Below are positions 3,119 to 31,667 of a DNA stretch of 34,750 nt, piece after piece. The position numbers and the translations under genes are program-made. A model generated the notes under the pieces. It saw only the letters and a list, made by a program, of their open reading frames with translations. It did not search any database and was not told the origin of the DNA. Location of the stretch: assembly GCA_026390075.1 (NCBI GenBank), contig JAPLGP010000046.1, forward strand, positions 1 through 34,750. Direction: 5' to 3'. The stretch comes from Campylobacterales bacterium (GTDB taxonomy: Bacteria; Campylobacterota; Campylobacteria; Campylobacterales; Sulfurimonadaceae). Each line of letters starts with the position of its first letter. Positions within the stretch are counted from its first letter, which is position 1.

Positions 3119-3616
3119 TTATATTTGAACAAATGTAGAGCCTTTTACTCCACACACAGGACATTTTTCAGGCGGTGTACCTAGCTCTATATATCCACAT
3201 ATCGGACATAAATAGATATTTACCTCATCTAAATCTTTCCCTTCTTTTACTGCTTGAAGTGCTTTTGCATAAAGTTCTGCATGAACTTTTTCTGCTTCAA
3301 GCGCATAACCAAACATCTTTTTAGCTTTATGGCTTTCTTTATCCGCTTGTTCGTACATTGGAGGATACATATTTTCAAACTCATAAGTCTCTCCACCGAT
3401 AGCAGCTTCAAGATTTTCGAGTGTAGAACCTATTTTATCCATTGCCTTTAAATGACCCTCGGCATGAATTTTTTCAGCTTCTGCGGTTGTGCGGAAGAGT
3501 TTTGCTATGTTTTCAAATCCGTCTTTCTCAGCTTTCTTAGCAAATGCACTATATTTTTGATACGCTTGGCTCTCACCGCTAAATGCTGTATCTAAATTTT
3601 CTTTTGTTGTTGGCAT
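3119..3616 (-). CDS. rbr: Rubrerythrin
   Basis: A 165-residue cytoplasmic peroxidase that reduces hydrogen peroxide with electrons passed through its rubredoxin domain. The N-terminal diiron domain shows Glu15 (GES), Glu48 and His51 (EKIH), Glu76 (GGE), Glu94 and Glu109 with His112 (EKVH). The C-terminal rubredoxin-like domain has Cys137-x-x-Cys140 (CPICGY) and Cys152-x-x-Cys155 (CPVCG). Length and domain order are standard. The start codon lies inside an exact copy of the repeated word: the coding strand reads TTCCACATGCC with ATG as initiator, and AAGGA lies a few bases upstream as ribosome binding site. Transcription is divergent from corA. Confidence 0.93.
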   Translation of the reverse strand: MPTTKENLDTAFSGESQAYQKYSAFAKKAEKDGFENIAKLFRTTAEAEKIHAEGHLKAMDKIGSTLENLEAAIGGETYEFENMYPPMYEQADKESHKAKKMFGYALEAEKVHAELYAKALQAVKEGKDLDEVNIYLCPICGYIELGTPPEKCPVCGVKGSTFVQI

Positions 3617-3622
3617 GTGGAA
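3612..3622 (+). repeat. Exact GGCATGTGGAA word over a start codon
   Basis: The copy covers the initiation region of the rubrerythrin gene, with the ATG inside the word and the ribosome binding site immediately upstream. Preceding base is T. Confidence 0.9.
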
Positions 3623-5984: not shown

Positions 5985-7493
5985 ATGAAAAAAGTCGCCT
6001 GCGCTACATATGAAGGGATGGACGCAAAAGTTGTCCAAGTAGAATCAACCCTCACAAAAGGGCTTCCATCTTTTTCTATCGTTGGCATGGCATCTGCATC
6101 TATCACAGAAGCAAAAGAGCGCGTAAAATCGGCGCTCCTAAGTAATGATTTTTCATTTCCCCCTAAACGCATCACTATAAATTTAGCTCCAAGCGATGTA
6201 AAAAAAGAGGGCTCACAGTTTGATTTGAGTATCGCGCTTATGATTGCTCTTGACTATTTAGAGAGTGATTTTAGTGAATGGTTTGTTTTTGGCGAACTTG
6301 GACTTGATGGCAGTATTAAAGAAAATTTACAGCTTTATCCGCTTATCTTGTCTCTTGCAAATCAAAAAATTATTAAAAAAGCAATAGTTCCACATGCCGC
6401 ACTTTTGAAACTCTCCAAAATACCAAATGTTGAATTTTATGGTGTTCGTGATTTAAACGAAGCGATAGAACTTTTAAAAAATCATGAAAATGCACAGCCA
6501 AGCATAGAACAGAGTGAAATAGCCTATCCATTTTATGAGATTGATGGCGAAAAATATTACTATACCAAAGAGTATGATGAAGATTTCATAGATGTAAAAG
6601 GGCAAGAAATTGCCAAAAGAGCTGCTTTAATCAGTGCAGCAGGATTTCATAACATCCTTTTTGAAGGTAGTCCAGGATGTGGAAAAAGTATGATAGCCAA
6701 GCGAGTTCGCTATATTCTCCCACCTATGAATATCAATGAAATTCTTGACATAGCAAAACTCGATGCACTTGAGGCAAAAGAACCACTCTTTAAACCCCAC
6801 AGAAATCTAAGACATCCGCATCATACTTCCACTTTGGCAAGTGTCTTTGGCGGTGGTTCACATCGTGCCATGATTGGCGAAGTGGGGCTTGCAAATGGCG
6901 GAATTTTGTTTTTTGACGAACTTCCGCACTTCTCGAAGAACATTTTAGAGGCTCTAAGAGAACCAATGCAAGACAATAAAATACGCATATCAAGAGTGAA
7001 CTCAAAAGTAGAATATCCGAGTGATTTTTTATTTATAGGTGCTATGAACCCATGTCCATGCGGAAATCTTCTCAATGAAAAGTTAGAGTGCAGATGCAGT
7101 GATTTAGAGGTGCAGAGATACAAAAATAGACTCTCTGACCCATTCCTCGATAGGATTGATTTAACTGTGGTAATGCAGAGTGCAAATGCCGATGACACTC
7201 CGAGTTTTAGTTCAAAAGAGTTTCATAAAAAAGTGGTAGAAGTGCATATTTTTTCTAAAAATCGAGGGCAAAATAGTTTTAATGCGAAGCTAAGTGACAG
7301 TGAAATAGAGAAATTTTGTATCTTAAGCAATGAAGCAAAAGCAACTTTAGATATTGCAGTAGGCAGATTTACCCTCTCTTTTAGAGCTATAAAAAAGATT
7401 CAAAAAGTAAGTCGTACCATCGCTGATTTGGAGAGTTGTGAGATTATACAAAAAGCACATATTTTAGAGGCTTTAAGTTATAGAAGAAGATAA
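5985..7493 (+). CDS. comM: ComM/YifB-type AAA+ ATPase (Mg-chelatase-like), transformation helicase
   Basis: A 502-residue protein of the YifB/ComM family. ComM is a hexameric branch-migration helicase that helps integrate incoming DNA during natural transformation in Haemophilus, Vibrio and Acinetobacter. The N-terminal domain carries GLPSFSIVGMA and INLAPSDVKKEGSQFDL, typical of the family. The AAA+ core has Walker A GSPGCGKS (about 228-235), HHTSTLASVFGGG, and Walker B GILFFDE (about 306-312). A CPCG plus CRC motif and the C-terminal Mg-chelatase domain follow. TATGAT at 5951-5956 is a candidate -10, and AAAAGG precedes the ATG. The gene carries one exact repeat word (6388-6398). Its presence fits the hypothesis that this organism is naturally competent. 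Confidence 0.9.
   Translation: MKKVACATYEGMDAKVVQVESTLTKGLPSFSIVGMASASITEAKERVKSALLSNDFSFPPKRITINLAPSDVKKEGSQFDLSIALMIALDYLESDFSEWFVFGELGLDGSIKENLQLYPLILSLANQKIIKKAIVPHAALLKLSKIPNVEFYGVRDLNEAIELLKNHENAQPSIEQSEIAYPFYEIDGEKYYYTKEYDEDFIDVKGQEIAKRAALISAAGFHNILFEGSPGCGKSMIAKRVRYILPPMNINEILDIAKLDALEAKEPLFKPHRNLRHPHHTSTLASVFGGGSHRAMIGEVGLANGGILFFDELPHFSKNILEALREPMQDNKIRISRVNSKVEYPSDFLFIGAMNPCPCGNLLNEKLECRCSDLEVQRYKNRLSDPFLDRIDLTVVMQSANADDTPSFSSKEFHKKVVEVHIFSKNRGQNSFNAKLSDSEIEKFCILSNEAKATLDIAVGRFTLSFRAIKKIQKVSRTIADLESCEIIQKAHILEALSYRRR
6388..6398 (-). repeat. Exact GGCATGTGGAA word in comM
   Basis: Plus strand reads TTCCACATGCC; in comM it encodes part of VPHAA. The base before the word on its own strand is C. 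Confidence 0.9.
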
Positions 7494-7610: not shown

Positions 7611-10600
7611 TTACACATTATAATAAGTAGCATTTGGATGATAAACAACCAAAGCACTTGTGGACTGTTCAGGATGAATCTGAAAAGTTTCGCTGAGCTC
7701 AATACCGAACTCTTCGGGTTTGAGTAAATCAAAAAGTGGACGATTAAGCTCTAAATCTGGACATGCGGCATAACCAAATGAGTATCTTGCACCTTGATAT
7801 CTGTTCATCTGAACATCGCCAAGTTTACTTCCTTCATTTTCACTTATGTTTAAATCGAGACGGATTTGTTTATGCACCATCTCCGCCAAAGCTTCGGCGA
7901 GTTCAACGCCTAAACCGTGAAACTGATAGTACTCAGTGTAGTTTCCACTCTCGTAAATCTCTCTTTCCACTTCGCTTAGTTTTGCTCCTGCACTGACACA
8001 AGTAAGGGCTAGGACATCATGTCTATCCGAGTGAAAAAAATCACTCAAAGCACGGTGTGGGGCTTTACTTTGTCGTGGAAAAGTAAACATAGTTTTTGCT
8101 CTTCCTATGGCATGTGCAAGTGGTTCGTGATTTATTTCATCTTGCGAATTGTACCCCTCACTCTCATCAAAAATAAGCAGAGTATTATCATCACTTCGAC
8201 ATGGCCAATAGCCATAAACGATGGTCGGGTCAAAAAGATTTTCATCCAAAAACCTCTTCTTTAATTTCTCATACGCAGGGTAAACAACTTCATCCATCTG
8301 TTTTTTATACGCCTCTTTTGTCATTCCTTTGGAGCTATAACCCCAACGAGATTTAAAAAGAATTTTGTGATTCACCCACTCAAATGCCAACTCTTTTTGT
8401 GCACGGGTGAGTTTCATCTCTCTTCTTCCCCAAAACGGTGGAGTAGGAACTTTTACCTCACGGCTTGGCATGTGGAGTTCATGAAATGGCGGAATGATTA
8501 CCTCTTTTTTCTCTTTTACAACTTTTTCTTCATTATCTTTGCCATGCAAATCCGTGTCAAGATTTCCTTTTTCAATTCTACTCATTGCAGTCACGCCATC
8601 AAAAGCATCTTTGCAGTAAAAGATAGGTCCATCATAAAAAGGTCGGCAAAAATCATCTATAAACGCCCTTGTAAGTGCAGCTCCACCTAAAAGCACAGGT
8701 ATAGCAATTCCCTCAGCTTTGAGCGCTTCAAGGTTCTCTTTCATCACTTGCGTTGATTTTACCAAAAGTCCGCTCATCCCCAAGGCACTTGCATTGGACT
8801 CTTTGAGCGTTTTTACAAACTTTTCCAAATCCACTTTTATCCCAAGATTTATAACTTTGAAGCCATTATTTGAGAGAATGATATCAACAAGATTTTTACC
8901 CACATCATGCACATCGCCTTTGACTGTTCCCAAAATCAGCGTTGTATCCACAGCTTTATCTATCTTTGGCAGATAAGGGTTAAGATAATCAACGGTTTTT
9001 TTCATCGTCTCAGCACTTTGAAGTACAAACGGCAACTGCATCTGCCCTGAACCAAAAAGCTCCCCTACAACTTTCATCGCATCAATCAAAATCTCATTGA
9101 CGATTTTCTCAGGTGCGATGGTTTTTCGTGCCTCTTCAACGAGGGGAATCATCCGCTCTTTATCGCCATCCATAAGAAGTTTTGCGATTTTTTGCGCATC
9201 ATTCATCGCCAAATACGCCGCATCTTCCACCGCATTATCCACCGCTTCTTTGGTACTGAAGTGTTCTATAAAAGTAAAAAGTGCTTCGCCATTTGGTTTA
9301 CGGTTAAAAATCAAATCATCACATAACTCTTGGTCTTCTTTGCTGATTTTATTTAAGGGAATGATGTGTTGCACATTGATGATAACACTTGTTAAACCCG
9401 CTTCGATGCAGTGATGCAAAAACATAGAGTTGAGATACGGTCGTGCATCTTTGTCAAGCCCAAAAGAGATGTTTGAAAGCCCTAAAACTGCACCCACTTC
9501 TGGATGTCTTTTTCGTAGTTCTCGTATGGCTTCAATAGTGTTAATCCCTGCATCACGGTACTCTTCATCGCCACTTCCAAGCGTAAAGGTGAGTAAATCA
9601 AAAACCAAATCTTGCGGATTTATGCCATGTTTTTTTGTCGCAAGGTCATAAATACGCTCTGCGATTTCTATTTTTCGCTCCACTGTTTTTGCCATTCCGG
9701 TTTCATCTATGGTTAAACAAACTAAAGCCGCACCATATTTTTTGGCAAGTTGACAAACCGTATCAAACTTTTCTATCCCATCTTCAAGGTTTACAGAGTT
9801 TATGATAGGTTTTCCGCCGATGAGTTTTAAAGCCTCTTCAAGTGCGGGAGTCTGCGTCGAATCGGGCATAAGAGGAAGAGCCAATTTTTGAGCATAAAGA
9901 CTCATAACAGAGTTCATATCTTTTGTTTCATTGCGTCCTGCAAAACCAACACTCACATCCAAAACATGTGCGCCAACACGAACTTGTTGCTGTCCAACGC
10001 TGAGTGTTCCCTCATAATCTTCCGCCAAAAGAAGTTCGCGAAAAGCTTTTGAACCAGTTGCGTTACTTCGCTCTCCGATGAGGAGAGGGGCTGGTTCTTG
10101 CATAAGCGGTACGGTTGAAAAAAGTGAAGCAAGAGAATTTGCCTGAGTTCCACATGCCAACTTTGGAGTTTTATTACTCACACGATTGACTAAAGCACGG
10201 ATGTGTTGGGGTGTAGTTCCACAGCATCCACCCAAAAAGCTCACACCGCCAAAATCTAAAAATGCCTCTTGTTTATCCGCAAACTCTTCGGGTGCCATCG
10301 GATAGTAAGTGTATCCGCCACGGTTTTGCGGGAGTCCTGCGTTAGCGTGAACGCTGATGGGTTTGCCCCAAAGTTCACTGAGAGTTTTTACATGTTTGAG
10401 AACCTGTTCAGGTCCAGTTCCGCAGTTAAAACCAAGACTTAAAATGTCAAAAGGCTCCAAAATGGTCGCGATAGTTCCCGCATCTGTTCCGATAAGCATC
10501 GTTCCACTTAGCTCGATTGTGACCGAAACCATGATAGGAATTTCTTTTTCTCTTTGAGCAGAAGCCTCTGCACAGGCATGAAGTGCTGCTTTGATTTGAA

Positions 10601-11102
10601 GAGGGTCTTGGCAAGTTTCAAGTAAAAAAACATCCACTCCGCCATCTATGAGCGCCAAACAAAATTCTGTATAACCCGCAAACATCTCATCATAGTGAAT
10701 ATGTCCAAGCGATGGAAGTTTTGTTCCTGGCCCGATAGAACCTAAGACAAAACGGGGATGCTCACGAGTGCTAAACTTTTCACACTCCTTTTTTACAAGC
10801 TCCGTTCCCGCTTTTGTCAGCTCATACGCACGATGCCCGATTTGGTATTCATCTAAAACCCAAGAAAAAGAACCAAAAGTATTGGTCGTGATAAAGTCCG
10901 CTCCAGCAGTCAAATAGGCATGAAAAATCTCAGATAAAACCTCAGGACAGGTAACATTGAGAAGTTCATTACACCCCTCATTCCCTTCCCAAGCGGCATG
11001 TGGAATCTTCTCATCTCTCTGCTGTAACTGCGTTCCCATCGCACCATCTATGATAAGTGGACGCGATTGTATAGTGTGTAAAATATATTCTTTAGTTGTC
11101 AT
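7611..11102 (-). CDS. metH: Cobalamin-dependent methionine synthase
   Basis: A 1163-residue cytoplasmic enzyme that moves a methyl group from methyl-tetrahydrofolate through cobalamin to homocysteine, giving methionine. Homocysteine domain (about 1-310) with zinc ligands Cys227 (FNCGTG), Cys293 and Cys294 (GGCCGTTP). Pterin-binding domain about 340-610 (LIGERSNATGS, DVSVGFAGR). Cobalamin cap and Rossmann domains follow, with Asp730-Val-His732-Asp-Val-Gly735 (GDVHDVGKN), where His732 is the lower cobalt ligand. C-terminal activation domain about 880-1163 ends with PEQSTSALVVYHPNA, which binds AdoMet in reactivation. Length and order are those of full MetH. It stands alone, without a visible riboswitch or clear ribosome binding site. 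Confidence 0.96.
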   Translation of the reverse strand: MTTKEYILHTIQSRPLIIDGAMGTQLQQRDEKIPHAAWEGNEGCNELLNVTCPEVLSEIFHAYLTAGADFITTNTFGSFSWVLDEYQIGHRAYELTKAGTELVKKECEKFSTREHPRFVLGSIGPGTKLPSLGHIHYDEMFAGYTEFCLALIDGGVDVFLLETCQDPLQIKAALHACAEASAQREKEIPIMVSVTIELSGTMLIGTDAGTIATILEPFDILSLGFNCGTGPEQVLKHVKTLSELWGKPISVHANAGLPQNRGGYTYYPMAPEEFADKQEAFLDFGGVSFLGGCCGTTPQHIRALVNRVSNKTPKLACGTQANSLASLFSTVPLMQEPAPLLIGERSNATGSKAFRELLLAEDYEGTLSVGQQQVRVGAHVLDVSVGFAGRNETKDMNSVMSLYAQKLALPLMPDSTQTPALEEALKLIGGKPIINSVNLEDGIEKFDTVCQLAKKYGAALVCLTIDETGMAKTVERKIEIAERIYDLATKKHGINPQDLVFDLLTFTLGSGDEEYRDAGINTIEAIRELRKRHPEVGAVLGLSNISFGLDKDARPYLNSMFLHHCIEAGLTSVIINVQHIIPLNKISKEDQELCDDLIFNRKPNGEALFTFIEHFSTKEAVDNAVEDAAYLAMNDAQKIAKLLMDGDKERMIPLVEEARKTIAPEKIVNEILIDAMKVVGELFGSGQMQLPFVLQSAETMKKTVDYLNPYLPKIDKAVDTTLILGTVKGDVHDVGKNLVDIILSNNGFKVINLGIKVDLEKFVKTLKESNASALGMSGLLVKSTQVMKENLEALKAEGIAIPVLLGGAALTRAFIDDFCRPFYDGPIFYCKDAFDGVTAMSRIEKGNLDTDLHGKDNEEKVVKEKKEVIIPPFHELHMPSREVKVPTPPFWGRREMKLTRAQKELAFEWVNHKILFKSRWGYSSKGMTKEAYKKQMDEVVYPAYEKLKKRFLDENLFDPTIVYGYWPCRSDDNTLLIFDESEGYNSQDEINHEPLAHAIGRAKTMFTFPRQSKAPHRALSDFFHSDRHDVLALTCVSAGAKLSEVEREIYESGNYTEYYQFHGLGVELAEALAEMVHKQIRLDLNISENEGSKLGDVQMNRYQGARYSFGYAACPDLELNRPLFDLLKPEEFGIELSETFQIHPEQSTSALVVYHPNATYYNV
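10148..10158 (-). repeat. Exact GGCATGTGGAA word in metH (linker region)
   Basis: In metH it encodes LACGT at the linker between the homocysteine and pterin domains (around residues 315-319). Preceding base T. Confidence 0.9.
10995..11005 (+). repeat. Exact GGCATGTGGAA word in metH (5' end)
   Basis: On the metH strand it reads TTCCACATGCC and encodes IPHAA near residue 35. Preceding base C. Confidence 0.9.
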
Positions 11103-11775: not shown

Positions 11776-12240
11776 TTATGAAAGTTCCACATGCCGAGCA
11801 CTTTTTGATGTTTTATGATAATAACTTTTCTTTTTATTTAGTTGATATAGAATTAAGTTTTTTCTTTCAATTAACTTGCGTCTATTGGATAGCTCTGACA
11901 ATGTCATAAAAATGAATAATATTACAAATATAAATATAATTGATTGCCCTGTATTAGCTATTGATAAAAAGTTTAATTCAATAAAATTAATAATTTTTCC
12001 ATTATTATTATTGTTACCATATATCAAACTAACTAAACTACTCAATCCTTGTAACAAATTCCAGCACATTATCCCTAGTCCAGAGATAAATATTAAGGTA
12101 ACATTATTAGCTAATTTTTCTTTTTCAACTATAGCTTTATTAATGTAGTCAAATTCTTTTAAAAGAACTTCCCTATCTTTGATATTTTTAATTTCTTCAT
12201 CTGAAATGTCTCTGACATTATTAAGAGTTTTTTTAAACAC
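11776..12240 (-). CDS. Small membrane protein with two transmembrane segments, unknown function
   Basis: A 154-residue protein I do not recognise. It has a charged N-terminal helix (about 1-45), two hydrophobic segments (about 48-74 and 99-115) around a polyasparagine loop, and a basic tail ending SARHVELS. The last residues are encoded by an exact copy of the repeated word, so the tail may have been shaped by it. The start is GTG at 12240; its ribosome binding site (GAGGAAT) lies inside the end of the upstream gene, which stops one base earlier, so translation is coupled. Base composition is strongly AT-rich and the codon use looks foreign. Confidence 0.55.
   Translation of the reverse strand: MFKKTLNNVRDISDEEIKNIKDREVLLKEFDYINKAIVEKEKLANNVTLIFISGLGIMCWNLLQGLSSLVSLIYGNNNNNGKIINFIELNFLSIANTGQSIIFIFVILFIFMTLSELSNRRKLIERKNLILYQLNKKKSYYHKTSKSARHVELS
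11785..11795 (-). repeat. Exact GGCATGTGGAA word at the end of a small membrane protein gene
   Basis: Encodes ARHVEL in the last residues of the gene, close to its convergence with the toxin gene. Preceding base C. Confidence 0.9.
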
Positions 12241-15059: not shown

Positions 15060-18041
15060 ATGTTTAAAAGAATTCTAAAAATAGTCCTTTTTATTTTAGC
15101 GATTTATGCCATTTTGGGCTTTATTGTTTTGCCTTTTGTTTTAAAATCACAAATTATAAAGAGCATTCAAAAAAAGACAAATGCTAGCATTTCCATTGAG
15201 AAGATTGCCTTTAACCCTTTTACTTTTGTTTTAAATATCACAGGTGTTGCACTCAAATCAAATGACGATACATTTGGCTTTCATCTAAAATCTATCACGA
15301 TGGATGTACAGCCCAGTTCACTCCTGAATCTAAATATCCACATGCCAAACATTACGCTAGAGAAAATGACTATGAAAGATTTTTTCTCTTTTGATTTTTT
15401 CTCTCTTAAAAATACAACTATTGAGCTTAGAAATAAAACTATTCATATCCAAAAAGTAAATTTAAACTCTTTGTCTGCGATGCTCAAAAGAGATGCAAAG
15501 GCGCAAATAGATTTACTAGAAAATGTAAAAAAACTTAAATTAAATTCAAACCCTAAAACAAGCTCCGATACCAACGCTTCAACTCCATGGAGCGTAGTTA
15601 TAGATGAGATAGCACTCCAAAAGATAAAAGTAGATTTTAATGATAGCGCTGTAAATCCAAGTGTAGTGACAAAACTTAATGATTTAAACCTCTCTTTGCA
15701 AAATGTTACTCTTGAGGGGAATGAACCATTTTTGTATCAATTAAATATGAATTGCAACAAAGATTTTAACTGTAGTTCAAGTGGCTCTGTTAAATATAAA
15801 GTGTTAGAAGTGAACTCTTCTTTAGAGTGTAGCGGATTAGATGTTGTGCATTATAAACCCTACATAGATGCAATTGCAAAAAAAGAGTTAGAAGTTTATG
15901 ATTTAAACTTAGCGAGTTTAATCGCTAGTTTTGATGCGAATGTGAGCATTAAAGATGCTAAACCAGAGATGATTTTAAATGTAAACAGTGCAAATATTCA
16001 TCTCAACCAATTTGCACTCAACAAAAAAAGCACAGGTGAAAAAGTAGCAAATTTTAGTAGTTTTGATGTAAGCGGTGTTTCACTCAGCTCAAAAGCACGG
16101 CATGTGGAAATCAAAAAAATCGCTTTAGCTAAGTTAGATATCAATGCAAAACGCTATAAAAATAAAAACCTCAATATACAAGATTTAGTAGTTCTAAAAC
16201 AAGAAGCAAACAAATCCGAGCAAAAGCAGGAATATACTTTAAAACTTTGGCATGTGGAATTGCGTGAGGCAAAACTAACTTTTGATGATGAAGCAGTACC
16301 AAAAGGTGCTAAAAACAAAATAGATACAATAAATTTGAATGCGTATGGTGTTGATTCTAAAATAAATAGTTTGTTAAAGTATGATCTCTCTCTTAGAGTA
16401 AATGAAGGCGGATATGTTAAATCAAAAGGCACACTTAAACACACTCCACTCCAGCAAGAAGGAACTTTAGAGTTACAAAAAATTTCTCTTAAAGAGCTCA
16501 CTCCTTATATTAAAGAGAAAGCTTTTTTAAATATTGATGATGGTTATTTGAGTATAAATACAAAAACAAAATATGAAAAGTCTTCAAAAAAAAGTGATTT
16601 AAGAGTCGTTGGTTCAATGAAATTGGAAGAATTTTTTGTGAGTGACAGCAGAAATAAAACACTCCTTCTCTCTTTTAGCGATGTAAAACTCAAATCTTTT
16701 ACCTATGAGATGTTTCCAAATAGACTCTTTGTAGATGAAGTCGATGTAAATTCATTTTATATAAATGCGCTTATAGATGAAAATAAAAAGATGAACTTAT
16801 CTTCTTTGATGAAGCCAATGAAAGATGAAAAGCAAACGAAAGAAAAAGAGAACTTTCCAATAAAAATAATGAAGATAAATGTCGCAAAAGGGAGTGCAAA
16901 TTTTTCTGATTTATCATTGGCAATAAAATTCAAAACAAACATTCATGACTTAAATGGCGTTGTCTATGCTGTTTCAAATATGCCCAATGACACGAGCTAT
17001 ATTGATATTGCAGGTGAAATTGATAGGTATGGTTCAACAAAACTAAAAGGAAGTGTCAATACGGGGAATCCCAAAGCTTTTACAGGCTTGGATTTCAACT
17101 TTCAAAATCTAGACCTTGAAGCTATGAGTGGTTACAGTGCTTCACTTGCAGGATATAAAATTAACAATGGGAAGCTCTTTCTTGACTTAAAATATAACAT
17201 ACAAAATTCAGAACTTCTGGGTCAAAACAGCATTATTATTAAAAATATAGAGTTAGGCGATGAGATCAAAGATAGTAATCAAAGCTCGCTACCACTCAAG
17301 TTTGTAATCTCTTTACTTGAAGATAGTGAGGGTGTGATAGATATAAATATGCCTGTGCAAGGAAATGTAGACGAGCCTGACTTCAAATATGGGGCATTAG
17401 TATGGAAAACTTTTGGTCATATGGTACTCAAAGCAGTTGCTTCACCTTTTAACATTTTAGGCTCGATAATTGGGGTGGATGGTGCTAAGTTGGAATATAC
17501 AGAATTTGAAGGTGGTTCTACAAATATTTTACCTCCAGAACAAGAAAAACTTGACAGTATCGCAAAACTTTTAGTAAAAAAACCAAAAGTTTCTATAAAA
17601 ATCAGTGGAAGATATAACACTCAAATTGATAAAAGAGCTTTGCAAAAAGAGAAGCACTCAAATCTTGTCATTAAAAAAAGTAAAATCAAAAATAGAGAAA
17701 ATCAAGTAAGCAGTGTAAATATAGATTTGCTAGAAGAAATTTATAAAGAGTTCTCAAATGACAATAAACTCAGTGTTATAAAAAATGCTCTTAAAAAACA
17801 ATACAAAGGTGAAGAGCTTACGCGAGCCTATACGAGCGCACTTTTTGAGGAATGTATCAAATTTCAAACAGTAACAGAAGAGGAGATGAAAACTTTGGCA
17901 CAAAAAAGAGCCGAAGCGATTCAGTCTTATTTAGTCATTAACCGTGGTGTAGATGCTCAAAGAGTTACAATAATAGACATAGGCGAAGCACAAAGTGACG
18001 AAAGTAAAGTCAAAATAAAACTACAAGTTGATGTAAAATAG
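15060..18041 (+). CDS. Large AsmA/DUF748-family envelope protein
   Basis: A 993-residue protein anchored by one N-terminal membrane segment (about residues 5-27) with the rest in the periplasm. It consists of repeated beta-rich stretches with many amphipathic strands, like the AsmA-like proteins thought to bridge the envelope and carry lipids; several lines match DUF748 (LPLKFVISLLEDSEGVIDIN, PEQEKLDSIAKLLVKKPKVS). The C-terminus (KRAEAIQSYLVINRGVDAQR) resembles the end of DUF748 proteins. I chose ATG 15060 because GGAG lies 6 bases upstream; a TTG at 15048 overlaps that site. Two exact repeat words and one near copy lie in the gene. Exact role unknown; the lipid-transfer idea comes from the family. 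Confidence 0.75.
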   Translation: MFKRILKIVLFILAIYAILGFIVLPFVLKSQIIKSIQKKTNASISIEKIAFNPFTFVLNITGVALKSNDDTFGFHLKSITMDVQPSSLLNLNIHMPNITLEKMTMKDFFSFDFFSLKNTTIELRNKTIHIQKVNLNSLSAMLKRDAKAQIDLLENVKKLKLNSNPKTSSDTNASTPWSVVIDEIALQKIKVDFNDSAVNPSVVTKLNDLNLSLQNVTLEGNEPFLYQLNMNCNKDFNCSSSGSVKYKVLEVNSSLECSGLDVVHYKPYIDAIAKKELEVYDLNLASLIASFDANVSIKDAKPEMILNVNSANIHLNQFALNKKSTGEKVANFSSFDVSGVSLSSKARHVEIKKIALAKLDINAKRYKNKNLNIQDLVVLKQEANKSEQKQEYTLKLWHVELREAKLTFDDEAVPKGAKNKIDTINLNAYGVDSKINSLLKYDLSLRVNEGGYVKSKGTLKHTPLQQEGTLELQKISLKELTPYIKEKAFLNIDDGYLSINTKTKYEKSSKKSDLRVVGSMKLEEFFVSDSRNKTLLLSFSDVKLKSFTYEMFPNRLFVDEVDVNSFYINALIDENKKMNLSSLMKPMKDEKQTKEKENFPIKIMKINVAKGSANFSDLSLAIKFKTNIHDLNGVVYAVSNMPNDTSYIDIAGEIDRYGSTKLKGSVNTGNPKAFTGLDFNFQNLDLEAMSGYSASLAGYKINNGKLFLDLKYNIQNSELLGQNSIIIKNIELGDEIKDSNQSSLPLKFVISLLEDSEGVIDINMPVQGNVDEPDFKYGALVWKTFGHMVLKAVASPFNILGSIIGVDGAKLEYTEFEGGSTNILPPEQEKLDSIAKLLVKKPKVSIKISGRYNTQIDKRALQKEKHSNLVIKKSKIKNRENQVSSVNIDLLEEIYKEFSNDNKLSVIKNALKKQYKGEELTRAYTSALFEECIKFQTVTEEEMKTLAQKRAEAIQSYLVINRGVDAQRVTIIDIGEAQSDESKVKIKLQVDVK
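16099..16109 (+). repeat. Exact GGCATGTGGAA word in the DUF748 gene (first)
   Basis: Encodes ARHVEI. Preceding base C. A second exact copy in the same orientation lies about 150 bases further on. Confidence 0.9.
16249..16259 (+). repeat. Exact GGCATGTGGAA word in the DUF748 gene (second)
   Basis: Encodes WHVEL, in the same codon phase as the copy at 16099. Preceding base T. Confidence 0.9.
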
Positions 18042-20790: not shown

Positions 20791-21381
20791 TTACTCTTTT
20801 TCGTTCTTTACTAAAACTTCATCAATCATGCCATAATCTAAAGCCTCTTGTGCGCTCATAAAATTATCTCGATCTGTATCTTTTTCTATTGTTTCAACAT
20901 TTTGTCCAGTATTTTTAGCAATCAATTCATTAAGTTCAGCTTTCATGCGAAGTATCTCTTTTGCTTGAATTGCAATATCTGTTGCTTGACCTCTCGCACC
21001 GCCCAGTGGTTGATGTATCATTATTCTGGCATGTGGAAGTGCATATCTTTTACCTTTTTCACCACTACAAAGTAAAAAAGCTCCCATAGAAGCAGCTTGA
21101 CCTATACAAATAGTCGCAACATTCGGACGAATATAATTCATAGTGTCATAAATAGCCATTCCAGCAGTCACAACTCCACCAGGAGAGTTGATATAAAAAT
21201 AAATATCTTTTTCTGGATCTTCAGCTTCTAAAAATAAAAACTGTGCCACTATCGAAGAAGCAACAGAGTCGTTTACTTCTCCACTTAGCATTACAATTCT
21301 ATCTTTTAAAAGGCGTGAGTAGATATCGTAAGAGCGTTCTCCGCGTCCTGTTTTTTCTACTACATAAGGAATATAACTCAT
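20791..21381 (-). CDS. clpP: ATP-dependent Clp protease proteolytic subunit
   Basis: A 196-residue serine protease that forms the 14-mer chamber of the ClpXP/ClpAP machine. The catalytic triad is Ser98 ([11 protein letters not shown]), His123 ([11 protein letters not shown]) and Asp172 (DTDRDNF), at the usual positions. It starts four bases after the tig stop, so trigger factor, protease and deformylase are made together, a nascent-chain quality-control unit conserved in the phylum. The stretch before the catalytic histidine, LPHAR, is encoded by an exact copy of the repeated 11-base word. Confidence 0.96.
21028..21038 (+). repeat. Exact GGCATGTGGAA word in clpP
   Basis: On the clpP strand it encodes LPHAR, four residues before the catalytic histidine. 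Preceding base T. Confidence 0.9.
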
Positions 21382-23216: not shown

Positions 23217-24549
23217 TTAAAGCTATTTCAAAAAACTCTACCAAGAGCGGCATGTGGAAATTCATAGTTTTAGAATCTTTGCACTCCAATAAAATTCTCA
23301 ACTTATTTTCTGTACCAGAGTAGCGAATAAGATGACGAATATTATTTGCATCTAACTCTTTTAATTTTTCATCTAATCCATCGATTGCGTTCAGTGGTTT
23401 TTTAGCTTTTATGTTTATATTTACAAGTTTTTGAGGGTATAGATTAAATGGTCGAAGCGCCTTAGAAGCTTTTTGTTTTGTTTTTATAAGCAACGCTAAC
23501 ACTTGCAAAGCACTCACAAGTCCATCACCAGTTTTGGCATAATCACTGATAATGACATGACCACTTTGTTCTCCTCCAAAGTTAATTTTCTCTTTTTTCA
23601 TAACCTCTAAAACATTTTTATCGCCAACATCGGAACGAAATAACTTTAATTCTTGAGAATGCATATAATCTTCTAACGCTTGATTACTCATCACAGTTGC
23701 AACTATTCCGCCACCTTTTAAAGCACCTTGTTTATTCATGTATGCACCCAAAGCACCTAAAAGCTGATCGCCATCAACAACTTCACCTTTTTCATCTACA
23801 ACAACAAGTCTATCCGCATCTCCATCAAGGGCGATTCCCAAATCTGCACGATATTTCAAAACCGCTTCACAAAGGTCTTTGGTATGTAGCGCTCCACATG
23901 CCTCATTTATGTTAAATCCATCTGGTTTATTATGAAGCACAATAACATCCGCACCGAGTTCTTCTAAAACCGTTGGACCTACTTTATACCCTGCTCCGTT
24001 TGCTGTATCTAGGACTATTCTCATATCTTTAAGTGATATTTCTCTAGGAAATGAATTCTTCAACTGAACGATATATCTGCCAATAACATCATCAATTCTT
24101 TTTGCTTTACCTATATTTTTTGCCGTAGCTTGAGCATTTTGAAGCGCTTCATTATCTGCATAAATTGCTTCAATCTCTTTTTCAATATCACTTGAGAGTT
24201 TATCGCCATGTCCATCAAAAAATTTTATTCCATTATCTTCATAAGAGTTATGAGAAGCACTTATCATGATTCCAGCATCACAGCGCATATTTTCAGTGAT
24301 AAAAGCAATGGCTGGAGTAGGCATAGGACCGATTTCAATTACATCATATCCAATCGCAGTTAAGCCACTCACGATAGCATTTTCAATCATGTAACCACTT
24401 CTTCTGGTATCTTTGCCTATTAAAATCTTATTCGTCGTTGAGTGCTTTTTAAAATATATCCCAGCTGCCATAGCAACTTTCATCGCAAGTTCGGCACTTA
24501 AAAAAGAACCTGCTTCGCCCCGTACACCGTCAGTTCCAAATAATTTCAT
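23209..24549 (-). CDS. glmM: Phosphoglucosamine mutase
   Basis: A 446-residue cytoplasmic enzyme that converts glucosamine-6-phosphate to glucosamine-1-phosphate on the way to UDP-GlcNAc for peptidoglycan and lipopolysaccharide. It begins [14 protein letters not shown], has the phosphoserine motif ISASHN with Ser99 as the phosphorylated residue, the metal-binding loop DGDADR, the sugar-binding loop GGEQSGH, and the phosphate-binding C-terminal [14 protein letters not shown]. Length is standard. An exact repeat word lies near the 3' end. The gene is divergent from rpsT and heads the long minus-strand unit down to def. Confidence 0.96.
23249..23259 (+). repeat. Exact GGCATGTGGAA word in glmM
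   Basis: On the glmM strand it encodes FHMP in the last residues. Preceding base C. A one-mismatch copy lies in the same gene at 23892-23902. Confidence 0.9.
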
Positions 24550-24968: not shown

Positions 24969-26036
24969 ATGTTAGCCGATAAACTTACACCGTTTATCAA
25001 TCGTTATAACGAACTTAGCAACTTGCTAAGTTCTCCTGACATCACCTCCGACATCAAACGAATGACAGCTCTCTCTAAAGAACAATCTTCACTTATGCAC
25101 ATCGTTGAAAAAGCTCACGAGTACAAAGATACTCTCAATGAAATCAAAGATGCAAAAGCAATGCTTGGCGACCCAGAAATGATTGACATGGCAAAAGAAG
25201 AGCTAAAAGAGCTTGAGCCAAGAATTCCTTTGATAGAAGAGCAGATAAAACTTTTACTCTTACCAAAAGACCCAAATGATGATAGAAATATCATCGTAGA
25301 ACTTCGTGCTGGTGCGGGTGGAGATGAAGCTGCAATCTTTGTTGGAAATCTTTTTGATGCCTATGTTCGTTATGCTGACCTTAAAGGTTGGAGCGTTGAA
25401 CTTATGAGCACTTCACCGTCCGATGCTGGTGGATATAAAGAAGTTATTGCACTCATAAAAGGTGATCAGGTATATAGCAGGTTGAAATACGAAGGTGGAA
25501 CACACCGCGTACAAAGAGTTCCTGCAACAGAGTCCCAAGGGCGTGTTCACACTTCTGCGATTACAGTTGCAGTTATGGCTGAAGTTGAAGATGTTGAAGT
25601 TCAGATAAATGAAAATGATTTGAAAATTGATGTTATGCGTTCAAGCGGATGTGGTGGACAAAGTGTCAATACAACGGACTCTGCTGTTCGTATTACGCAC
25701 TTGCCAACAGGCATAGTCGTAACAAATCAAGACCAAAAGTCACAACATAAAAACAAAGACAAAGCGATGAAAGTTCTCAAAGCGAGACTTTATGACCTTG
25801 AAATGCAAGAAGCTCTTGCAAAAGATAGTGCAAACCGTGCTTCTCAAGTAGGAACAGGCGATAGAAGCGGACGCATTCGAACTTATAATTATCCACAAAA
25901 TCGTATGAGCGACCATAGAATCACTTTGACACTTTACAGACTTGCCGAGATTATGCAAGGCGGACTTCTTGATGAGATTATAGAACCGCTCATCACAGAT
26001 CATCAAGCTAAAATAGTGGAAGCTGCGGGACTCTAA
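24969..26036 (+). CDS. prfA: Peptide chain release factor 1
   Basis: A 355-residue factor that ends translation at UAA and UAG. The codon-recognition tripeptide is Pro185-Ala-Thr187 (RVPATES), which marks RF1 rather than RF2. The peptidyl-tRNA hydrolysis loop is Gly229-Gly-Gln231 ([10 protein letters not shown]). [10 protein letters not shown] and the C-terminal [11 protein letters not shown]-type stretch ([15 protein letters not shown]) are also standard. Its end is 14 bases before the head-to-head pair of repeat words that separates it from the convergent AAA ATPase gene. Confidence 0.96.
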
Positions 26037-26048
26037 AAATTTTTATTC

Positions 26049-26076
26049 TTGGCATGTGGAAACTTCCACATGCCAA
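26049..26076. terminator. Head-to-head pair of GGCATGTGGAA words between convergent genes
   Basis: GGCATGTGGAA (26051-26061), AC, TTCCACATGCC (26064-26074), flanked by TT and AA, gives a 13-bp inverted repeat with a 2-base centre. It is the only sequence between the prfA stop (26036) and the stop of the convergent AAA ATPase gene (26081), so it is likely to serve as a two-way terminator as well as two uptake-type words. No T run follows, so termination is inferred from position. Confidence 0.7.
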
Positions 26077-26080
26077 AGTT

Positions 26081-27361
26081 TCAGGAATCCAACATATATT
26101 TATAAAGAGGTAAAATAGTAATTGTTTTATCTTCAACGCTCACTACACTCTCTTCACTTTGTGTGACCAAAAAAGCCTCTTTTAGGTTTAGATACTCCAT
26201 CGCTTCAACTAAGCCATTTATCTCTCTTTCTCTTGTTTGCAAATTGCTTATATCATAGCTCACATTTACAAGTATCTCTCTATCTTCAAGTTTTGCATAA
26301 AAATCTACTTCTTGTTTTTGCTTATAATAATATATATTTTTTGTTTTTCTTCTAAGATGCAAGTAAACAGCATTTTCATAAAGCTTACTCATATCTTCGC
26401 CTATTGCATAATCATATATTTTTTTAAATCCACTATCAACTGCATATATTTTTTTTGGATTTCTTTGCTCTTCTTTGATGGAATTTCTATAAATAGGAAG
26501 CGTAAAAATTGTATATGCATCTTCAAGATGTGAGAGATACTGAAAAATTGTATCTTTGCTCAGTTTAAAACCCTGAGATTTAAAATCATTATAAAGTTTA
26601 GTAAAACTTACAAGCGTAGCAATATTTGTAAAGCAATATTTATTGAGATGTTTAAGAAGACTTCGGTTTGTTATATTGTACCTCTCAACTATATCTTTAT
26701 ACACTATCAACTCCAAATAATCACTGAGTATTTTTCTTGATATTTGTGGCTCAGTATCAATGGTTTCTGCAAAACCGCCATCAATCAAATAGCTTGCAAG
26801 TGCATTTTTAATATAACTCAAAGAGTTCGATGAGTGCAAATTTATTTCAATGTTTTTATACTCCAAGTACTCTTTAAACGAAAAAGGAAATATCTCATAA
26901 GTGATTGTCCTTCCACGCAAACTTGTAGCAATTTCACTTGAGAGAAGTTTCGCACTTGAGCCCGTTATAAATATTTGTATGTTAAGAGTATCATAAATTC
27001 TCCGCACATAAAGTTCCCACATCTCAACCTCTTGAATTTCATCCAAAAAAAGATATATTTTTTCATCTCTTTTATGAGGGTACATCTCGTAGTAAGATTC
27101 TAAAATAAGGTCAAGTGATTTTAACTCAAGTGGGTAAAATCTATCATCTTCAAAGTTAAGATAAATTATGTTTTCTTTTGGTATTTTTTCTCTGAGTTTA
27201 TTAATCATTTCAAACAAAACAAAGCTTTTGCCGCTTCTTCGTACGCCAATAAGCGATACTATTTTTTTAGAGTCAAGGGGTATCTCATAAGAACGAGAAA
27301 AAATATTTTTTATATCTCTCTCAAAAAAATCTACAATAACTCTTTTGAAAATATTTTTCAT
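26081..27361 (-). CDS. AAA ATPase with DUF4143 domain
   Basis: A 426-residue protein of the large prokaryotic AAA_14/DUF4143 group. Walker A is GVRRSGKS (about 38-45), Walker B is IYLFLDEIQEVEMW (about 102-115), followed by sensor IFITGSSAKLLSSE and the AAA_14 line LRGRTITYEIFPFSFKEYLE. The C-terminal DUF4143 part contains KIYAVDSGF and a PD-(D/E)xK-like stretch VDFYAKLEDREILVNVS. Function is unknown for nearly all members; they are scattered, often variable genes, sometimes linked to toxin-antitoxin or mobile regions. It stands alone between two conserved blocks and may be an accessory gene. Confidence 0.85.
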   Translation of the reverse strand: MKNIFKRVIVDFFERDIKNIFSRSYEIPLDSKKIVSLIGVRRSGKSFVLFEMINKLREKIPKENIIYLNFEDDRFYPLELKSLDLILESYYEMYPHKRDEKIYLFLDEIQEVEMWELYVRRIYDTLNIQIFITGSSAKLLSSEIATSLRGRTITYEIFPFSFKEYLEYKNIEINLHSSNSLSYIKNALASYLIDGGFAETIDTEPQISRKILSDYLELIVYKDIVERYNITNRSLLKHLNKYCFTNIATLVSFTKLYNDFKSQGFKLSKDTIFQYLSHLEDAYTIFTLPIYRNSIKEEQRNPKKIYAVDSGFKKIYDYAIGEDMSKLYENAVYLHLRRKTKNIYYYKQKQEVDFYAKLEDREILVNVSYDISNLQTREREINGLVEAMEYLNLKEAFLVTQSEESVVSVEDKTITILPLYKYMLDS

Positions 27362-27428: not shown

Positions 27429-27439
27429 GGCATGTGGAA
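27429..27439 (+). repeat. Exact GGCATGTGGAA word in an intergenic gap
   Basis: Lies 4 bases beyond the dapF stop, between it and the start of the ATPase gene. Preceding base C. Single, not paired. Confidence 0.9.
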
Positions 27440-27443
27440 ATAA

Positions 27444-28196
27444 TCACACCTCTGTAACAAACACTCTTTTTACTTCACCCTGAAATGTAATCGTTCTTTC
27501 ATTCATTCCTAAATAAAGTGTATCGCCACTTCTAGGATAAACTTCTATTTTATTTGAAACTAAACCCTCTTGAAATGCACGGTAAAAGCAAGCCGCCATA
27601 CCAGTTCCACATGCCAAGGTTTCATCTTCAACACCGCGTTCATAAGTTCTTACTTTTAGATTTTTACCATCTACAAAAGCTATATTTACATTTGCGTTAT
27701 ACTTGTATCGAAGTTCTCTCGCCTCTTGCAAATCAAATTCTTCAATAGTGTTCGTAATGTGAACGAGATGCGGAACTCCAGTATCTAGTTTCCACCAATT
27801 TTTTCCATTATGCTCAATTTTTTTATCCAAAATTTTTGGCGGAGTGAGTTCACTCAAAACCAAGCCACTATTTTGACTTATTGGCGCAACCTCAGCATTT
27901 ATAACACCCGCTACAGTTAAAAAGCTCATCTTCGCAGGTGCAAGGAAATTACTAAATGCGTAATGCGCACATGCACGGCTTCCATTTCCACACATTTCAG
28001 CTTCGCTTCCATCGGAGTTATAAAATTGCCACTCGAAGTCATACACGGCATGTGGAACTAAAACTATAAGCCCATCAGCCCCTACACCATTTTGTCTATG
28101 ACAAAGTTTTTTTGCTTCCTCACTTCTATCTTTTTTAATAAATGTATGAAAAATTACAAAATCATTTCCATTGGCACTGTATTTAGATACTGTCAC
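27444..28196 (-). CDS. dapF: Diaminopimelate epimerase
   Basis: A 250-residue enzyme that converts LL- to meso-diaminopimelate for lysine and peptidoglycan synthesis. The two catalytic cysteines are Cys69 (EMCGNGSRAC) and Cys196 (LACGTGMAA), in mirror-image half domains. KYSANGNDFVIF at the start is typical. The start overlaps coaE by 14 bases. The gene carries two exact repeat words, one of which encodes the LACGT of the second active-site cysteine and the other VPHAV; two copies in a 753-base gene is the highest density in the window. Confidence 0.95.
   Translation of the reverse strand: MTVSKYSANGNDFVIFHTFIKKDRSEEAKKLCHRQNGVGADGLIVLVPHAVYDFEWQFYNSDGSEAEMCGNGSRACAHYAFSNFLAPAKMSFLTVAGVINAEVAPISQNSGLVLSELTPPKILDKKIEHNGKNWWKLDTGVPHLVHITNTIEEFDLQEARELRYKYNANVNIAFVDGKNLKVRTYERGVEDETLACGTGMAACFYRAFQEGLVSNKIEVYPRSGDTLYLGMNERTITFQGEVKRVFVTEV
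27605..27615 (-). repeat. Exact GGCATGTGGAA word at the dapF active-site codons
   Basis: Encodes LACGT, which includes catalytic Cys196. Preceding base T. Confidence 0.9.
28047..28057 (+). repeat. Exact GGCATGTGGAA word in dapF (second copy)
   Basis: On the dapF strand it encodes VPHAV near residue 48. Preceding base C. Confidence 0.9.
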
Positions 28197-29771: not shown

Positions 29772-29797
29772 TCCGCACTTTTAAAATGGAGTCTTTT

Positions 29798-30793
29798 ATG
29801 AGCCAAATAAGCTATAAAGATGCCGGCGTTGACATAGATGCTGGCAATAGTTTTGTAGAAAACATCAAACCCTTAGTTAAATCCACGAAAATACCTGGTG
29901 TACTCGGTGGCATAGGCTCTTTTGCTGGAGCATTTGAATTGCCAAAAGGCTTTAAAGAGCCAGTAATGTTAGCAGCGACAGATGGAGTTGGAACAAAACT
30001 CAAACTCGCAATCGATTCTGGCATACACAATACAGTCGGGATAGATTTAGTTGCAATGTGTGTAAATGATCTTCTTTGTAACTTTGGAACTCCCTCATTT
30101 TTCTTAGATTACTACGCAACTGGAAAACTTGATGTGAAAACTGCAACGAGCGTTGTAGCAGGTATTGCTGAGGGCTGTATAAGAGCCGAATGTGCACTCA
30201 TTGGTGGAGAAACTGCTGAGATGCCTGGAATGTATGCGAGTGATGATTACGATTTAGCAGGTTTTGCAGTTGGCGTTGCTGAAAAGAGCGAAATGGATAG
30301 AGTTGCACTTGTTCGTGCTGGACATAAACTTATAGCACTTCCAAGTTCAGGACTTCATTCAAATGGTTTTTCACTTGCGAGAAAAGTTCTGTTTGAAAAA
30401 ATGGGCATGAAGTTTAGTGATGAATTTAACGGTAAACCACTCATAGAAACTTTACTCGAACCTACAAATATTTATGTAAAAATGTTCAAAGAATTAAAAG
30501 ACAGCATCGTTGCAATGGCGCATATTACAGGTGGTGGAATCGTAGAGAACCTTCCTCGTGTACTTCCAGAAAATTTACGAGCAGAAATCAAAAAAGATTC
30601 TATTAAAGTTCTCCCAATATTTGAACTCATATCCCAGCATGTGGAAATAGATGAAATGTACAGAGCTTTTAATATGGGTGTTGGTATGATTTTAGTTGTT
30701 GAAGAGGCAAATGTTGCAAATATTTTAGCTAAAACAGACGGTTATGTCATTGGTGAAATTGTGGATGGAAAAAGAGAAGCAGTAATGATTTAA
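29798..30793 (+). CDS. purM: Phosphoribosylformylglycinamidine cyclo-ligase (AIR synthetase)
   Basis: A 331-residue cytoplasmic enzyme that closes the imidazole ring in purine synthesis, using ATP. It starts MSQISYKDAGVDIDAGNSFV and contains ATDGVGTKLKLA, GIDLVAMCVNDLL, GGETAEMPGMY, SSGLHSNGFSLARKV and HITGGGIVENLPRVLP, all standard. I chose ATG 29798 because GGAG lies six bases upstream; the earlier ATG 29786 overlaps that site. The gene is monocistronic and ends just before an inverted pair of repeat words. Confidence 0.96.
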   Translation: MSQISYKDAGVDIDAGNSFVENIKPLVKSTKIPGVLGGIGSFAGAFELPKGFKEPVMLAATDGVGTKLKLAIDSGIHNTVGIDLVAMCVNDLLCNFGTPSFFLDYYATGKLDVKTATSVVAGIAEGCIRAECALIGGETAEMPGMYASDDYDLAGFAVGVAEKSEMDRVALVRAGHKLIALPSSGLHSNGFSLARKVLFEKMGMKFSDEFNGKPLIETLLEPTNIYVKMFKELKDSIVAMAHITGGGIVENLPRVLPENLRAEIKKDSIKVLPIFELISQHVEIDEMYRAFNMGVGMILVVEEANVANILAKTDGYVIGEIVDGKREAVMI

Positions 30794-30796
30794 AAC

Positions 30797-30822
30797 TTTC
30801 CACATGCCATGGCATGTGGAAA
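30797..30822. terminator. Perfect palindromic pair of GGCATGTGGAA words between convergent genes
   Basis: TTCCACATGCC (30798-30808), AT, GGCATGTGGAA (30811-30821), with one more matching base at each side, gives a perfect 26-bp palindrome. It is the centre of the 37-base gap between the purM stop and the stop of the convergent exported-protein gene. Here the words point the opposite way from the pair at 26051, so both arm orders occur. Confidence 0.7.
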
Positions 30823-30830
30823 TACTCTAC

Positions 30831-31667
30831 CTAATTAAACGGTTTTTCTAAATCTTTTTTGATTGCATCTGGGACACTTGATATAGTCATAAATGTTCCC
30901 ATATCAAGAAGTGGATAGCTAAGAGCTATATGGTATTTACCATTTAAAGCTGTTGCAATTCCATCTTCTATGGATATACAATAAGGTAAAACAGCAGCAT
31001 TTGCTCTACCAATTTTTCCTACAAACTTATTAGTTTTATCACCTAGCTGGTATCCTAAAAGTGTACTTTTATCTGAAAGTTTAAGTTCAAATATCAAAAG
31101 TTTTCCCTCTTTATAACCCTTAGCCTTAGCTAATAACTCTTCATTTGTTCCCGTACCCAATTCTTCAACATCGCTATAATAAGGCATTCCCATCATAAAA
31201 TGATATCCTGCTAAATCATCAAACTTTAACTTATCAACAGATGGTGTAAGAGCTGAAAACGCCTTATTGATTGCTTCTAATTGCGCATTAAATACTTTAT
31301 GATTGTAATCTTTTTGCATATATGCTTTTCCAAAGTAAACAGGATTAGTAATACTAATCATTTTCTCTTGCTCATCTACAAAAAGACGAAGAACAGCTGC
31401 GTGTGCTTTTTTTGGTTTAGCACCTTCAGCTTTGAGTGCTGCATTTGTAAATACGATTGTATTTCCATTTTCAACACTTGCATAAGTTGCAATTACTTCA
31501 AAACCTGCACCTGCAAGCTTCGTCTTAGCAGTTGCAACATCTACATAAGCCCCTTGAAGATATGCGCTAACTTCTGTACCTTCTAAGCCTGTATCTTCTG
31601 CTGAGGCAACAGTTGCGCCAAATGCAAATAAGCTAATGAATGTTATGAATTTTAATAATTTTTTCAT
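30831..31667 (-). CDS. Exported protein of unknown function, partner of the DUF302-like protein
   Basis: A 278-residue protein with a signal peptide (MKKLLKFITFISLFAFGATVASA) and a soluble mature part of alternating strands and helices; it seems to hold two related halves (GFEVIATYASVENGNTIVFT and later GYHFMMGMPYYSD, YHIALSYPLLDMGTFM). I do not recognise a named family. The start overlaps the upstream gene by 4 bases (ATGA), so the two are made together, probably as partners in the periplasm. The broken FadL-type porin gene lies just upstream, suggesting that all three handled the same substrate, but a terminator separates the porin gene. Confidence 0.6.
   Translation of the reverse strand: MKKLLKFITFISLFAFGATVASAEDTGLEGTEVSAYLQGAYVDVATAKTKLAGAGFEVIATYASVENGNTIVFTNAALKAEGAKPKKAHAAVLRLFVDEQEKMISITNPVYFGKAYMQKDYNHKVFNAQLEAINKAFSALTPSVDKLKFDDLAGYHFMMGMPYYSDVEELGTGTNEELLAKAKGYKEGKLLIFELKLSDKSTLLGYQLGDKTNKFVGKIGRANAAVLPYCISIEDGIATALNGKYHIALSYPLLDMGTFMTISSVPDAIKKDLEKPFN

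Follow-up and report, generated by a model that had tools for sequence, protein, structure and literature searches.

An inverted word pair between prfA and an ATPase gene

The window, by which we mean the whole 34,750-nucleotide stretch of DNA that was analysed, carries prfA, the gene for peptide chain release factor 1 (24969-26036, + strand; TIGR00019), which converges on an ATPase gene with the domain families AAA_14 and DUF4143 (26081-27361, - strand). Beyond the latter lies dapF, encoding diaminopimelate epimerase (27444-28196, - strand), whose convergent neighbour, in most of the relatives examined, is prfA. The gap between prfA and the ATPase gene measures 44 nt and contains a 28-bp inverted pair of words (26049-26076), which starts 12 nt past the prfA stop codon and ends 4 nt short of the 3' end of the ATPase gene. 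The left arm, TTGGCATGTGGAA (26049-26061), carries an exact copy of the word in + orientation and the right arm, TTCCACATGCCAA (26064-26076), an exact copy in - orientation, so that the AA ends face each other, an arrangement that we refer to as the IN type. Both arms are 13 nt long and 100% complementary, with a 2-nt spacer between them. Given the base composition, perfect 13-bp arms at such spacing are expected about 0.002 times per window and 0.12 times per genome, and the observation at this site was confirmed as real and beyond chance. The initial annotation had recognized two exact facing words, 2 bases apart, in a 28-bp near-palindrome, which the complementarity of the arms bears out; it had also described the palindrome as nearly filling a convergent gap, and the gap is indeed convergent, although the filled part comes to 28 nt, about two thirds of it.

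When folded as RNA, the + strand at this site gives a hairpin of -19.5 kcal/mol on its own (centroid) and a best structure of -21.1 kcal/mol, against a mean of -8.3 for shuffled sequences, none of which equalled it (0 of 200). The - strand folds at -26.9 kcal/mol, against a shuffled mean of -12.9, and again no shuffle equalled it. A second inverted pair in the window, TTCCACATGCCATGGCATGTGGAA (30798-30821), has the opposite, OUT orientation and lies 4 nt past purM (29786-30793, + strand), which is convergent with a gene at 30831-31667 (- strand).

A strict word with hundreds of copies

The word itself is the 11-mer GGCATGTGGAA, of which the window holds 18 exact copies. Apart from those in the two pairs and one directly past the dapF stop codon (27429-27439, + strand), sequence matches lie on the + strand at 2389-2399, 3612-3622, 10995-11005, 16099-16109, 16249-16259, 21028-21038, 23249-23259 and 28047-28057, and on the - strand at 519-529, 6388-6398, 10148-10158, 11785-11795 and 27605-27615. 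The whole 2,403,259-base genome (G000) has 946 copies, 485 on the + and 461 on the - strand, while the reversed control has 0. For finer questions of placement we used a sample composed of twenty 20-kb stretches and the window, 434,750 bases in all with 195 exact copies, in which genes were called by a simple script and 91% of the sequence is coding.

The word is strict. Among its one-letter variants in the sample, the most frequent is A to T at position 11 (n = 42), followed by C (15) and T (11) at position 9, and every other change occurs at most 9 times. The flanks contribute slight information only, with T or C preceding the word and T two places after it, and this fades within 3-4 nt. No replication polarity was found, as 105 of the 195 copies in the sample lie on the G-rich strand (p 0.32), and the spacing of copies is slightly more even than random (coefficient of variation 0.80 when close pairs are left aside and 0.97 when they are included). 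In the sample, genes enclose 114 copies entirely; co-directional gaps contain 36, convergent gaps 34 and divergent gaps 4, a further 5 run across the edge of a gene and 2 sit at the ends of stretches. Convergent gaps there number 49 and total 4.1 kb, and divergent gaps number 52 and total 8.5 kb.

The three longest word-free stretches of the sample feature, respectively, a phage-type gene with a Zot domain, signal-transduction genes and core genes, as judged from 10 of the 21 listed genes sent to Pfam, 8 of which gave a family. The longest, 13.1 kb at a contig start, contains ftsZ, ftsA and a nosZ-type gene and is not foreign DNA. The gene with the Zot domain (L137:12802-13920, G000:C29) sits inside an 8.7-kb word-free stretch whose GC content is 29.7%; Zot-domain genes occur in filamentous phages. 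The same genome has a second repeat family, CTCGCAATGAC[G/C]GTCATTGCGAG with GAAGCAATCT (L135:3021-3043 and L136:3923-3945), which is far above expectation, with 21 copies of GTCATTGCGAG and 23 of CGAAGCAATCT in the 435-kb sample.

Inverted pairs accumulate at gene ends

We defined a pair as two words 0-30 nt apart, IN pairs being a word followed by its complement and OUT pairs having the opposite orientation. Genome-wide there are 34 IN and 40 OUT pairs (the latter including one triple counted twice), where the word counts predict about 2.9 of each; in the sample there are 9 IN, 15 OUT and 3 same-direction pairs, with about 0.7 of each expected. By gene context, the 74 inverted pairs divide into 33 convergent, 32 co-directional, 3 divergent and 4 coding, with 2 at contig edges. 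A survey of the gaps between convergent genes, which the initial annotation had proposed as a check, found them enriched in pairs: of the 49 convergent gaps in the sample 14 hold one, whereas among the other 269 gaps 9 do (odds 11.6, p 2e-7), the figure for divergent gaps being 1 of 52. Stems begin close to stop codons, at a median of 16 nt past the stop for IN and 10 nt for OUT pairs. The spacer is 1-2 nt in 17 of the 34 IN pairs, and an identical spacing of 2 nt recurs in 16 of the 40 OUT pairs, while loops and flanks differ from pair to pair.

Approached from the side of the palindromes, the sample contains 25 perfect ones with arms of at least 11 and a spacer of at most 4, one of them being a run of N. 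Exact word pairs make up 13 of the remaining 24, and in two more an exact word is joined by a truncated partner. The viral contigs scanned contained no word pair.

A strong hairpin with no clear U-tract

The initial annotation suggested that the pair replaces a terminator. As regards the criteria for an intrinsic terminator, a stable hairpin closely past the stop codon is present at the prfA site; the tails past the arms (AAGTTTCA / AGTTTCAG on the + strand, GAATAAAA on the - strand) show no U-tract, and a terminator scanner called none at the site. Across the genome, the 74 pairs yielded 98 tails once those within a gene or lying farther than 200 nt from a stop codon had been set aside. At least five T among the eight bases directly past the stem were found in 5 of the 45 IN tails and in 15 of the 53 OUT tails, with a background of 20%. 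The stems likewise stop where the words do, the outer flanks being no more complementary than shuffled ones (p 0.11 and 0.13).

A loose test for intrinsic terminators was passed by 8 of the 23 convergent ends that have a pair (1.8 in shuffled sequence), by 5 of the 18 co-directional ends that have a word (0.4) and by 1 of the 13 convergent ends where a word stands alone (0.4). Among wordless ends, it was passed by 12 of 74 convergent ones (8.4 in shuffled sequence), 9 of 90 co-directional ones with a gap of at least 60 nt (2.6) and 16 of 191 close co-directional ones (13.8). Wordless convergent ends thus give little sign of U-tract terminators, while wordless ends in long co-directional gaps give some, and the tail and end counts together indicate that pairs contribute a strong hairpin without any additional U-tract.

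Position, fold and the scarcity of intrinsic signal at wordless convergent ends speak for the suggested replacement; the absence of a U-tract clearly above background, stems that stop with the words and the near-equal orientations (34 and 40) speak against it. We therefore regard the terminator reading as half supported, backed as it is by position and predicted fold without a U-tract. In the other word-rich genomes, the numbers of IN and OUT pairs are 41 and 16 (G289), 21 and 21 (G357), 30 and 43 (G416), 17 and 30 (G438), 16 and 19 (G408), 12 and 21 (G430) and 9 and 8 (G439), and in genomes with lower counts 0 and 0 (G442), 4 and 2 (G500) and 2 and 2 (G327).

The prfA locus in relatives

Differently arranged pairs follow prfA at 2 of the 27 loci compared in relatives. 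One of them (L002), whose prfA is 92% identical, has an OUT pair 9 nt past the prfA stop; the other (L015), at 86% identity, has an OUT pair of the variant word GGCATGTGA about 10 nt past the stop, this variant being defined from 4 copies in 3.3 kb. At the other 25 loci the 140 nt past prfA contain no core of the word, which we count against the explanation favoured below; one locus with a 98% identical prfA (L001) may retain degenerate remnants there.

At 20 of the 27 loci dapF lies within 200 nt of prfA on the opposite strand, and a relative of the AAA_14/DUF4143 gene was found at the prfA locus in none of the 27. In the window this gene sits between prfA and dapF. It is possible that an older OUT pair was split by the ATPase gene, and that the single word just past the dapF stop codon is its other half.

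Words appear to arise by substitution

Sites of GGCATGTGGAA were aligned with the corresponding sites in relatives. In the rich group, made up of L002 (4 words in 7 kb) and stretches of two rich genomes (G289 and G357), 19 of 29 sites are identical, against a baseline of 9%. In the group that we labelled wordless, which includes single-word loci and in which 4 of 74 sites are identical, 59 of the 74 align without gaps and show a broad spread of mismatches, while 15 (20%) are gapped, against a baseline of 10%. Since ungapped sites in wordless relatives are what words arising by substitution rather than insertion would leave, the alignments point to substitution, followed by retention. Two further groups stand outside this argument: an intermediate one (14 sites, 7 identical, 2 gapped) and one composed of genomes with the second word described below (19 sites, 0 identical, 3 gapped).

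Two unrelated words within one genus

Among 397 genomes of the class, more than 6 copies of GGCATGTGGAA occur in four only, with 946 (G000), 734 (G289), 662 (G357) and 50 (G327) copies, and the genomes of this class sample that lie outside the family have 0-3 copies each. Within the genus (135 genomes), eight are rich, with 946, 907, 734, 662, 595, 573, 535 and 318 copies (the last being 65% complete), ten are intermediate, with 152 to 15 copies, and the other 117 have at most 7. Variants of the word also exist, namely GGCATGTGGG and GGCATGTGA, and two genomes (G434 and G470) show TTGGCATGTGGG, a variant based on 45.7 kb. One genome (G200) had no exact GGCATGTGGAA in 40 kb.

A second strict word, YTGCGTTT, is unrelated to GGCATGTGGAA and was met in two genomes (G332 and G239) that have 6 copies each of GGCATGTGGAA. 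In 31 of the 135 genomes of the genus it reaches at least three times its reversed control, from 83 against 25 up to 4199 against 463, and it stays at control level (0.67-1.3 times) in all 18 genomes with at least 15 copies of GGCATGTGGAA; the tallies of 18, 31 and 117 genomes were counted by eye from tables. Loci with YTGCGTTT are L253-L256 and L261-L263. A tree of ComEC from 15 genomes, with an unsettled bootstrap, groups the two YTGCGTTT genomes together and four wordless genomes together, while those with GGCATGTGGAA form no resolved grouping.

A candidate third word, from G295, was dropped because it belongs to a longer repeat, built around GGCGTATGTGGC and spanning some 26 bp or more, with 8-9 copies in 80 kb (L257-L260). 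Another genome (G129; L264-L265), which is without GGCATGTGGAA and has YTGCGTTT near control level, has 4 sites in 40 kb that carry the palindrome TTACATGTAA.

Competence genes and receptor candidates

The competence gene comEC is present in 19 of 20 genomes, including all 7 rich ones tested, and occurs in wordless genomes too. Two candidates for a receptor of the word were considered and rejected. A T2SS-like secretin locus seemed to go with the word carriers in 20 genomes and failed over 135: the secretin is absent from G409 (99% complete) and from G433 and G465 (80-82% complete), in each of which the second word is enriched. A minor pilin of 224 amino acids is found in 88 of the 135 genomes, wordless ones included, and is absent from a rich one (G357). 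Neither of these two presence/absence candidates, then, tracks the word over the 135 genomes. Of the pilins near comEC, the first has the start ...PKLAATR in five word carriers (L250, L252, L254, L262 and L323) and ...PKFxGVS in four wordless genomes (L232, L233, L235 and L236); the PKLAATR start is also seen in G295, G129 and G333, which carry neither word.

A probable DNA-uptake-type word, with pairs proposed to serve as 3' hairpins

Taken together, we consider GGCATGTGGAA to be probably a DNA-uptake-type word of a Sulfurimonas-like lineage, whose inverted pairs would be kept at gene ends as 3' hairpins that may be Rho-aided or protect the mRNA. The uptake reading, already put forward in the initial annotation, is a prediction from sequence that finds good support in the genome-wide numbers, the strictness of the word, its dialects and the pattern of pairs at gene ends. 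A competence DNA receptor would prefer DNA bearing the word, and recombination with DNA taken up in this way would spread and maintain it by point mutation, resulting in some 950 copies, mostly single and inside genes. Head-to-head copies that happened to arise directly past a stop codon would then be retained by selection, as their excess suggests, because they give the transcript a strong hairpin of at least 11 bp, which may end or protect the 3' end of the mRNA on both strands of a convergent gap. With no clear U-tract, assistance by Rho or a block to 3'-to-5' exonucleases seems likelier than a textbook intrinsic terminator. Several results count against the account as a whole, namely that neither receptor candidate tracks the word, that wordless genomes have comEC as well, that the longest word-free stretch of the sample consists of core rather than foreign genes, and that the pairs show no clear U-tract.

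That the uptake words of the pair could nonetheless form, as they do in Neisseria, a canonical intrinsic (Rho-independent) terminator acting in both directions is suggested by the perfect hairpin in a convergent gap with a strong fold on either strand, by the placement of pairs at gene ends and by the loose test, in which convergent pair ends (8/23 vs 1.8) and co-directional word ends (5/18 vs 0.4) both exceed shuffled sequence. We consider this unlikely in view of a site that the scanner does not call, T-rich tails near background, stems that end where the words do and the lack of an orientation bias in G000, although G289 is biased 41 to 16. A hairpin without a job is a similarly doubtful proposition: pairs would be by-products of template switching at quasi-palindromes, or of relaxed constraint past stop codons, and the generally higher density of words in convergent gaps, the lack of any stem extension past the words and the 1-2 nt spacers of half the IN pairs all agree with it. 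It fits poorly, however, with divergent gaps, which are twice as long in total as convergent ones and yet so rarely hold a pair (1/52 vs 14/49), and with the differently arranged pairs that two relatives carry after prfA.

The word might instead be a chromosome-handling site (Chi-like, KOPS-like or bound by a nucleoid protein) rather than an uptake word, as its strictness and genome-wide occurrence, the failure of the receptor candidates and a long word-free stretch of core genes would allow. Against it stand the lack of strand skew, the inverted pairs at gene ends and the unrelated word in other genomes of the genus that stays at control level where GGCATGTGGAA is common, and we hold this account to be quite improbable. 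Least credible of all, to the point where we give it next to no weight, is the idea that the pairs arose as copies of a mobile element, a small palindrome of the REP or MITE kind: the 2-nt spacing shared by 16 of 40 OUT pairs and the gapped sites in wordless relatives (15/74, against 10%) are compatible with mobility, but information fades within 3-4 nt of the word with no longer shared flank, most words are single and inside genes, loops and flanks vary among pairs, and 59 of the 74 sites aligned with wordless relatives are ungapped.

Comparison with known uptake sequences

Campylobacter and Helicobacter belong to the same class and have comEC-based competence. In contrast to the rich genomes described here, class genomes outside the family have no genome-wide GGCATGTGGAA, with 0-3 copies each. 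Searches of the literature on uptake sequences and competence in Sulfurimonas, Campylobacterota and Epsilonproteobacteria, with subscription papers and preprints outside their scope, gave no report of uptake words among the matches listed, which included the review PMC2734928 and a paper on stress proteins; the matches listed for the word GGCATGTGGAA itself dealt with mice, tomato and cancer. PMC1939737, when searched for Campylobacter, Helicobacter and related terms, contained none of them.

The closest likeness is to the DUS of Neisseria, which also number hundreds to thousands of strict copies, with inverted pairs mostly in convergent gaps or past co-directional genes. According to the excerpted text of Kingsford 2007 (PMC1852404), hairpins of words within 10 nt of each other in N. 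meningitidis comprise 94 tail-to-tail, 61 + 63 tail-to-head, 3 intragenic and 10 head-to-head cases; the same classes in G000, for words within 30 nt, number 33 convergent, 32 co-directional, 4 coding and 3 divergent, plus the 2 contig edges. Dialects of the DUS are described among related Neisseria species in the excerpts of Frye 2013 (PMC3630211), and dialects together with inverted pairs in those of PMC3630211, PMC2397512 and PMC12616744. The strong IN bias of Neisseria is explained, in the part of PMC1852404 that deals with it, by a T-tail supplied by the extended word, whereas the flanks of GGCATGTGGAA supply no T-tail and the orientations in G000 stand at 34 to 40. Unlike in Neisseria, moreover, the word is unrelated to the DUS and lacks the CTG core, two wholly different words occur inside one genus, and the uptake role is here a predicted one.

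Haemophilus-type USS are 9 bp long. The second word, YTGCGTTT, is short like these, with a different sequence. With the USS of Pasteurellaceae, as presented in the excerpts of PMC12616744, our system shares a strict word, inverted pairs and types within a family, but no long extended flank surrounds GGCATGTGGAA. In the excerpted text of the literature cited here, uptake words with dialects are confined to Neisseriaceae and Pasteurellaceae. On balance, we lean towards the view that Sulfurimonas-type Campylobacterota represent an independent third origin of uptake words, which come in two or more unrelated forms (GGCATGTGGAA and its variants, and YTGCGTTT) and would split the genus into groups favouring their own DNA, and that inverted pairs may have been co-opted as 3'-end hairpins in a genome where U-tract terminators are little in evidence at convergent ends that lack the word. 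If this is true, a separate origin in a distant and environmentally important phylum stands beside those in Neisseriaceae and Pasteurellaceae, and two unrelated words in one genus, with many genomes having neither, offer a natural comparison of how words originate, spread and change. In addition, the hairpin pairs, having no clear T-tails, would separate the notion that pairs make intrinsic terminators from the notion that pairs are general 3' hairpins.
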